Below, piece after piece: positions 503 through 38,820 of a stretch of 53,934 nucleotides of DNA. Positions within the stretch are counted from its first letter, which is position 1, and each line of letters opens with the position of its first letter. The stretch is from Acidobacteriota bacterium. GTDB lineage: Bacteria; Acidobacteriota; Aminicenantia; Aminicenantales; Aminicenantaceae. Both the position numbers and the translations under genes were made by a program. Where the stretch lies: the NCBI GenBank assembly GCA_030669585.1, contig DAOVDI010000004.1:1-53934 (forward strand). Reading direction: 5' to 3'. The notes under the pieces are model-generated. The model saw only the letters and a program-made list of their open reading frames with translations, did not search any database and was not told the DNA's origin.

Positions 503-766
503 AAATAGGATTCAAGGGCCAAAGGCCAAAAGTCTATAGAAGTCTATTGAGGTCCATAGAAGTCTATCGAAGTCGTAGAAGTCCATAGAAGTCTGTTGAA
601 GTCAAGAAGAGTTTATTGCGCTTATTGGGTTCGTTGTGTTCTTTGGGTTATTTTAATAAATTTAACTCAACAAACTCAATGAGCTCAAAGAACCCAATAA
701 GCTCTTATCTCTTTTCACTTGAACCCTTTTTTTCAATGTGTCGTCGAATTTTATGAATAGTCCAGG
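503..766 (+). repeat. Composite intergenic repeat, copy G1 (10-bp AAGTC array, 13-bp inverted repeat, right terminus TTTTATGAATAGTCCAGG)
   Basis: AAGTC array at 530-603; GCTTATTGGGTTC 620-632 pairs with GAACCCAATAAGC 690-702; right-end motif at 749-766 matches 988-1005. Confidence 0.7.
530..603 (+). repeat. 10-bp-period degenerate tandem array, consensus AAGTCYATHG
   Basis: Units AAGTCTATAG AAGTCTATTG AGGTCCATAG AAGTCTATCG AAGTCGTAG AAGTCCATAG AAGTCTGTTG AAGTC. Confidence 0.9.
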
Positions 767-797
767 TTTCCTGGGTTATTCACAAGTTGATATGCAC

Positions 798-862
798 GGC
801 GGGGCGCATGAAGCCGTATTAATATACTGCGAATGCGCTGCAACAAAGCAGATCGGCCCGCC
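798..862 (+). other. Structured hairpin with conserved 23-nt loop, copy 1
   Basis: Inner stem GCGCAT (804-809)/ATGCGC (833-838) around loop GAAGCCGTATTAATATACTGCGA; outer stem GGCGGG (798-803)/CCCGCC (857-862). The loop is 22/23 identical to copy 2 at 38720-38742. Confidence 0.7.
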
Positions 863-870
863 CGGAGGGG

Positions 871-991
871 AAAAGCGTCCAATATAAAATAGAAAGTGAA
901 ATAGAATTCACAGGGCAATCTCATCCCCTCACCTAATATCAAAAATACTGTCAATAGAAATAAAAAATGATAGAAAGTATTGGACGCTTTT
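871..991. repeat. 14-bp perfect inverted repeat nested in the G2 element
   Basis: AAAAGCGTCCAATA (871-884) is the exact reverse complement of TATTGGACGCTTTT (978-991). Confidence 0.85.
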
Positions 992-1005
992 ATGAATAGT
1001 CCAGG

Positions 1006-38557: not shown

Positions 38558-38820
38558 CCTGGATTATTCACGGATCGAGATTGGTTATAAGGATTCAAGG
38601 ATTCGAGTGAAAAGAAATAATATAAAGAGAGGATTCGAGTTTTTTTGTTGTGTCCCGTTGAATTGAATGCCTGGACTATTTACGAGTCGAGGTTGATGCA
38701 TCTGCAAGAGGTTGTTCGTGAAGCCGTATTTATATACTGCGAACGAACGGCATCGCAGCAGATGGGATAAGATCGGCTTGTAAATTGTTCAGGCTGCCCT
38801 GGATTATTCACGGGTTGCGA
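38558..38820 (+). repeat. Three direct copies of the element left terminus in the acnB-fabG gap, the middle one carrying the hairpin
   Basis: CCTGGATTATTCACGGATCGAG at 38558; CCTGGACTATTTACGAGTCGAGG at 38670; CCTGGATTATTCACGGGTTGCG at 38798. Confidence 0.8.
38699..38764 (+). other. Structured hairpin with conserved 23-nt loop, copy 2
   Basis: Inner stem GTTCGT (38714-38719)/ACGAAC (38743-38748) around loop GAAGCCGTATTTATATACTGCGA; outer stem CATCTGC (38699-38705)/GCAGATG (38758-38764). Confidence 0.7.

Follow-up and report, generated by a model that had tools for sequence, protein, structure and literature searches.

The window, by which we mean the whole stretch of 53,934 nucleotides that was analysed, contains two copies of a short repeat element, the parts of which are listed in Table 1. 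Each copy holds an almost identical 23-nucleotide core enclosed by a 6-bp stem that differs between the two; the earlier note had pointed out both 23-mers and both stems, and they proved correct to the base. No third match to the 23-mer with up to three mismatches occurs in the window (chance expectation 0.00), and a scan of the window with a covariance model returned only its two copies, at 778-871 (E=1.5e-17) and 38678-38791 (E=1.1e-20; both E-values are rough). The CCTGG..TATTYAC termini noticed earlier just outside both copies are the terminal inverted repeats of the element. The right end of copy 1 adjoins the stop codon of a minus-strand ORF at 1006-1836. Directly upstream of copy 1, positions 500-766 are occupied by a core-less composite repeat with tandem GAAGTC-type units, which ends on the right in TGAATAGTCCAGG and includes a long hairpin formed by GAGTTTATTG.../...CCCAATAAGCTC, and the nested units of which recur upstream of many element copies. 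A dispersed repeat, CTGGATTCCCGTTTACACGGGAATGACG, is likewise nested in repeat clusters beside many copies in the same genome (e.g. L042, L058, L101).

Table 1. Features of the two element copies and of neighbouring element ends in the window.
Feature	Position	Strand	Remark
Right end TGAATAGTCCAGG of core-less neighbour element, directly upstream of copy 1	754..766	+	no covariance-model match
Element copy 1, subfamily B, 236 bp	770..1005	+	inverted ends, full fold
Copy 1 left terminal inverted repeat (P1 5' side), CCTGGGTTATTCA	770..782	+	pairs with 993-1005
Copy 1 P2 5' strand, CAAGTTGA	783..790	+	homologous to model helix 1; imperfect here
Copy 1 variable stem beside core, 5' strand GCGCAT	804..809	+	model helix 3
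Copy 1 conserved core hairpin, GAAGCCGTATTAATATACTGCGA	810..832	+	103 genome copies
Copy 1 variable stem, 3' strand ATGCGC	833..838	+	model helix 3
Copy 1 P2 3' strand, TCGGCCCG	853..860	+	homologous to model helix 1; imperfect here
Copy 1 small hairpin, CCC-GGA-GGG	861..869	+	model helix 5
Copy 1 distal arm 5' strand, AAAAGCGTCCAATA	871..884	+	pairs with 978-991
Copy 1 distal arm 3' strand, TATTGGACGCTTTT	978..991	+	pairs with 871-884
Copy 1 right terminal inverted repeat (P1 3' side), TGAATAGTCCAGG	993..1005	+	pairs with 770-782
Truncated left end CCTGGATTATTCACGGATCGAGATTGG upstream of copy 2	38558..38584	+	
Element copy 2, subfamily A, 124 bp	38670..38793	+	without small hairpin and distal arm
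Copy 2 left terminal repeat, CCTGGACTATTTA	38670..38682	+	
Copy 2 P2 5' strand, CGAGTCGA	38683..38690	+	predicted fold; model helix 1
Copy 2 middle helix 5' strand CATCTGC	38699..38705	+	predicted fold
Copy 2 variable stem 5' strand GTTCGT	38714..38719	+	
Copy 2 conserved core hairpin, GAAGCCGTATTTATATACTGCGA	38720..38742	+	
Copy 2 variable stem 3' strand ACGAAC	38743..38748	+	
Copy 2 middle helix 3' strand GCAGATG	38758..38764	+	predicted fold
Copy 2 P2 3' strand, TCGGCTTG	38773..38780	+	predicted fold; model helix 1
Copy 2 right terminal repeat, TAAATTGTTCAGG	38781..38793	+	
Truncated left end CCTGGATTATTCACGGGTTGC downstream of copy 2	38798..38818	+	

The organism's own draft genome (G000), an Aminicenantes-type assembly of 2.48 Mb in 191 contigs that is 88% complete, contains 103 copies of the 23-mer at up to three mismatches (53 forward, 50 reverse; reversed control 0), so that the earlier count of only two copies holds for the window but not for the genome. 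Of the 103 copies, 101 were compared by the sequence flanking the core; 91 of these belong to subfamilies A (26 copies, including the one with its core at 38720), B (34, including the one at 810) and C (31), which keep one core inside differing stems. Further copies with unpaired flanks had been named as an observation that would speak against a fold; further copies were found, and their flanks pair. In the other 10 copies, the left and right flanks were assigned to different subfamilies. One of these (L073) belongs to B and has lost a single base, which misled the ungapped comparison, and the remaining nine look chimeric (L039, L046, L058, L059, L068, L077, L088, L091, L104): they appear to switch subfamily at the 23-mer, so that the stem pairs poorly, by recombination or through assembly joins, several of them lying near contig ends. 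Elements are approximately 120-300 bp long and have no transposase gene inside; they start with CCTGG[A/G]TTATTCAC and finish with the inverted repeat ...TGAATAATCCAGG (CCTGGATTATTCA...TGAATAATCCAGG). The A type measures 124 bp, and the B and C types reach about 185-300 bp because a small CCCGNAGGG hairpin and a distal arm are added. At least nine versions of the distal arm exist in the genome, with strands that are complementary within each version (mean pairing score 25.7 versus 18.5, at most 20.0, after exchanging strands among copies).

Predicted RNA folds of both copies are unusually stable (-77.1 kcal/mol, z -5.9 for copy 1; -60.7 kcal/mol, z -8.5 for copy 2), and the helices pointed out earlier fared differently in them. 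The outer helix of copy 2, CATCTGC/GCAGATG, is part of the minimum-energy fold. The letters of the outer helix proposed for copy 1, GGCGGG/CCCGCC, are present, but this helix is absent from both the minimum-energy fold and the structure supported by covariation, in which CAAGTTGA pairs imperfectly with TCGGCCCG and CCC-GGA-GGG forms a separate small hairpin. The GTAT-N4-ATAC mini-hairpin within the core belongs to a longer conserved hairpin, GC-Y-GUAN-N4-NUAC-Y-GC. RNAalifold produced a consensus of 30 pairs from an alignment of 36 diverse sequences (A1), 24 of them with two-sided changes. With the small hairpin added, 95.1% of the cells of 33 pairs are paired, 27 of the 33 pairs show two-sided changes and the covariation score is 0.594; the variable stem beside the core (model helix 3) has two-sided changes at all 7 of its pairs. 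Shuffled controls reached 74.7% paired cells, 18.1 two-sided pairs and a score of 0.219+-0.011, and 0 of 500 matched the observed values, a count that is not a probability for related sequences; the slid-partner control preserves relatedness, yet gave far lower values (at most 43.4% paired, 14 two-sided pairs, score 0.134). The selection on a folded RNA or single-stranded DNA that had been suspected from the two window copies is thereby supported. Unpaired positions rank among the most conserved, in particular GAA/GA beside the core stem, the Y.Y mismatch within it and the internal loop RAGGC/AACRNA; an AGAU/AGAU loop, present in most members, is also among the most conserved columns across phyla. 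Across several bacterial phyla, the aligned copies thus describe a module in which the stems turn over while the loop stays fixed. On the plus strand of the 36-sequence alignment G-U pairs outnumber A-C oppositions by 143 to 22, indicating that folding is a property of the plus strand. Folded as DNA, the plus strand is also the more stable one (-26.6 versus -16.5 kcal/mol; z -5.8 versus -2.6). A conserved fold and its strand specificity are thus established at the level of sequence comparison. Rfam, the comparison with which had been proposed earlier, gave no match in the window at the gathering threshold, none for copy 1 at E<=10 and nothing credible in nine related loci, and no described family of Rfam 15 fits. 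Searching the literature by sequence string and topic retrieved no description, subscription papers being mostly outside its coverage, and BLAST against plasmids and phages found no match.

The search of relatives that the earlier note had recommended showed that the fold is much more widespread than the 23-mer, which itself occurs at up to three mismatches in 13 of 36 same-family relatives, with a covarying inner hairpin (GTAT/ATAC, GTAG/CTAC, GTAC/GTAC). The covariance model (R1) has matches in 32 of these 36, with at least 62 in several of them and in the own genome. Other families of the order have R1 matches in 2 of 23 genomes only, both from family f2 (1 and 14 matches). When GTDB genomes were scanned for the pattern TGAAGCYGTA-N6-TACYGCGAA, the same architecture with other stems emerged, among the matches listed, in MAGs labelled Ca. 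Aminicenantes, Desulfobacterales, Lentisphaerae, Kiritimatiellaeota, Verrucomicrobia, Glassbacteria, Nitrospirota and Clostridia and in MAG Bin_338; a few of the listed matches, for example L191 and L172, seem to be due to chance. Among the more distant genomes, R1 copies are most numerous in Bin_338 (at least 150), Lentisphaerae (at least 138), Nitrospirota (89) and Deltaproteobacteria bin85 (41), followed by Desulfobacteraceae (12), Kiritimatiellaeota (10), Clostridia (9 and 3), Desulfacyla (7), Glassbacteria (7) and Verrucomicrobia (4); one Clostridiales genome had zero R1 matches. Low per-genome counts may be due to MAG contamination. The Clostridia copies retain the core and the loop with GA, but their terminal stems are different and some copies stand in tandem, which suggests that the fold is a module travelling with different ends. 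Direct tandems of two folded cores, 107-121 bp apart, were seen in Clostridia (L287, L153) and Kiritimatiellaeota (L283), those of Clostridia without IS1380-type ends. Among Aminicenantes, the independent copies L113, L114 and L141 have a portion of their right arm substituted, at almost identical positions, by the palindrome AAAAAAAAGGGGACTGTCCCCTTTTTTTT, and GC-rich inserts around CCAACCTAACCC / GGGTTAGGTTGGGTCGG lie within fold arms of L120, L127, L131 and L132, as if a second small element targeted these arms. In Desulfobacterales (L180, L184, L185), the distal arm carries a further common hairpin (CAC-N5-GTGAATTCC) and the length is nearly constant at 256-260 bp, which may point to another structured domain.

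Of 78 elements for which the partner end is clear, 24 (31%) show exact 4-bp target duplications at the predicted border; displacing the border by 1-2 bases gave at most 2, and shuffled flanks a mean of 2.9 with a maximum of 11 in 2000 shuffles. The duplicated tetranucleotides are YTAR-like (among them TTAG 6, CTAA 5, ATAG 3, TTAA 2, TAAA 2, CTAT 2). Neither window copy has a target duplication because both are flanked by other element ends. Judged by their borders, the elements are mobile and generate 4-bp duplications upon insertion. The suggestion that the motif might be the target of a transposase or recombinase was therefore right in so far as a mobile element with inverted-repeat ends and target duplications is concerned, but direct evidence for an enzyme acting on the loop itself was not obtained. 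PiggyBac duplicates TTAA and, less often, TTAG, TAAA and CTAA, and IS1380 transposases are the prokaryotic outgroup to piggyBac (PMC10813416). In Bin_338, an N-terminal fragment of an IS1380 transposase (PF13701, E=2e-37) is preceded by TCCGAATACTTCATGAGAG; the five other sites of this sequence in Bin_338 (up to three mismatches; reversed control 0) are all element ends, at loci with R1 matches, and the IS1380 end and the element ends are identical at up to 16 of 19 positions. In the relative G020, the right end of IS1380, TTTTTTTATGAATTATCCAGG, is nearly identical to that of the element, TTTTTATGAATAATCCAGG; in the relative G008 the likeness is weaker. The own genome contains PF13701 at a single site, where a stop codon breaks the gene and recognisable ends are absent. 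No autonomous copy combining a transposase gene with the folded core was found, partner ends up to 5 kb away being chance matches only, and none of the IS1380 genes examined adjoins a covariance-model match. Several element-rich MAGs have no PF13701 gene; MAGs often lose IS elements. The likeness of the ends makes the link to IS1380 well supported, and the other terminal stems of the Clostridia copies count against it, indicating that the fold is not everywhere tied to IS1380-type ends.

Seventeen right ends in the own genome coincide precisely with the stop codon of an ORF on the minus strand that has at least 90 codons, compared with about one for each other distance. TAG makes up 9 of these 17 stop codons, versus 5 of 38 in the window, and gaps between genes of the window are short (medians of 8-29 bp for tandem and convergent pairs). 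Because TAG is enriched at these sites and the intergenic gaps are short, insertion at YTAR targets of a compact genome probably accounts for the accumulation better than a special mechanism would. A function as 3'-UTR or terminator device, which these positions had suggested, was rejected: the orientation of genes around the copies is mixed (22 convergent, 16 divergent, 25 tandem), and a terminator scan made no call at the distal arm.

Taken together, we consider the repeat to be probably a non-autonomous mobile element of the IS1380 (piggyBac-like) type that carries a conserved folded module acting as RNA or, with lower probability, as single-stranded DNA. An IS1380-family transposase (piggyBac superfamily) acting in trans would recognise the CCTGGATTATTCAC-type terminal inverted repeats and insert the MITE-like element into YTAR/TTAA-like tetranucleotides, thereby duplicating 4 bp. 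In contrast to an ordinary MITE, the interior is a conserved folded module: the plus strand forms a junction at which the terminal stem meets a long arm, tipped by a GAAGCYGUA-N6-UACYGCGA hairpin, the small hairpin and the variable distal arm, the latter two absent in the short A type. Paired positions are free to change as long as pairing persists, and specific unpaired purine-rich positions are fixed. The working state is most likely an RNA transcribed from the plus strand and bound via the fixed loops by a protein of the host or the transposon. In the form described for piggyBac, DDE transposition requires no folded strand, indicating that the fold serves something else. A tentative extension of this reading is that the RNA works in trans, whether as a cofactor, as a ribozyme or by binding a protein, either for the spread of the element or for the host. 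Equally tentatively, such RNAs might constitute a previously unrecognised class of mobile non-coding RNA genes in multiple phyla, moved by IS1380-type ends and, in certain lineages, by others.

It seems rather unlikely that the fold acts instead as single-stranded DNA, extruded during replication and recognised by the transposase or another DNA enzyme after the manner of attC sites or of IS200/IS605 and REP hairpins. The strand specificity would fit equally well, since DNA tolerates G-T pairs and the plus strand is the better folder as DNA too; moreover, the whole element including its ends belongs to the fold, and the mixed gene orientation gives no sign of a fixed part of an mRNA. However, target duplications and terminal repeats point, partly from what is known of the family, to a DDE transposase with double-stranded DNA as its substrate, no Y1/HUH transposase was found in the own MAG and no element lies beside the Y1 genes of relatives, and the purine-rich internal loops may resemble the tandem G-A motifs of RNA. 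Even less probable is an ordinary MITE with a functionless fold, in which template switching within imperfect palindromes copies changes from one arm to the other. The elements are indeed palindromic and highly repeated, and close copies differ by double-sided changes with few unpaired intermediates (TGAAAA/TTTTCA, TAAAAA/TTTTTA, TGATAA/TTATCA), but template switching would erase the mismatched internal loops, which are highly conserved across phyla, and predicts no strand preference, contrary to the excess of G-U over A-C. Template switching may thus add to the two-sided changes among young copies, but cannot maintain mismatched loops or a strand bias. That a known RNA or repeat class (riboswitch, ribozyme, REP/RAYT, integron attC or omega RNA) went unrecognised is very improbable, for although conserved loops in variable stems are typical of such classes, Rfam gave no credible match and size, ends and duplications are unlike those of REP or attC.

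High-copy palindromic repeats of bacteria are usually seen as inert transposon debris. The present repeat has a detailed one-strand fold in very distant hosts, a copy number that reaches 150 or more in a genome and no Rfam family, and the covariance model is ready for finding the class elsewhere. The repeat also opens to direct testing the question whether DDE-type MITEs can carry functional RNA. The hundreds of stems around fixed loops represent a large natural mutant set for finding what reads the loop.

Among known systems, IS1380/piggyBac MITEs are similarly short and devoid of a transposase gene, have inverted ends starting with CC that match an IS1380 gene of the same genome and are flanked by 4-bp YTAR/TTAA-like duplications. 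Typical MITEs are merely shortened transposons, unlike the present element with its conserved internal fold and compensatory stems across phyla. ERIC/IRU, RU-1/RU-2 and Correia/NEMIS are intergenic, MITE-like mobile repeats that can fold as RNA and, like the present element, measure about 100-250 bp; however, they are known from narrow host ranges and have conserved stem sequences, whereas here the stems turn over and the loop is fixed. For RU-1/RU-2, comparable sizes are given in PMC2759123. REP/REPIN sequences with their RAYT (TnpA-REP) are also high-copy, palindromic and intergenic, but REPs are described as 20-40 bp long with a GTAG or CGTC tag (PMC3733652), unlike the present elements, which measure 120-300 bp, end in terminal repeats and are associated with target duplications. 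An assignment to REP/RAYT was rejected, as no Y1 gene (PF01797) was found in the own MAG (88% complete) and no core near the 19 Y1 loci of relatives. Integron attC sites combine a conserved structure with a variable sequence, and one strand folds. The present element shares these properties, but it has target duplications and lacks attC boxes and cassette arrays; RYYYAAC/GTTRRRY boxes were not found, the ends being CCYGR...YCRGG with 4-bp duplications instead. Conservation here resides in the terminal loop, opposite to the situation in attC. As in a structured RNA family in the sense of Rfam, covariation within the element lies well above that of the controls.
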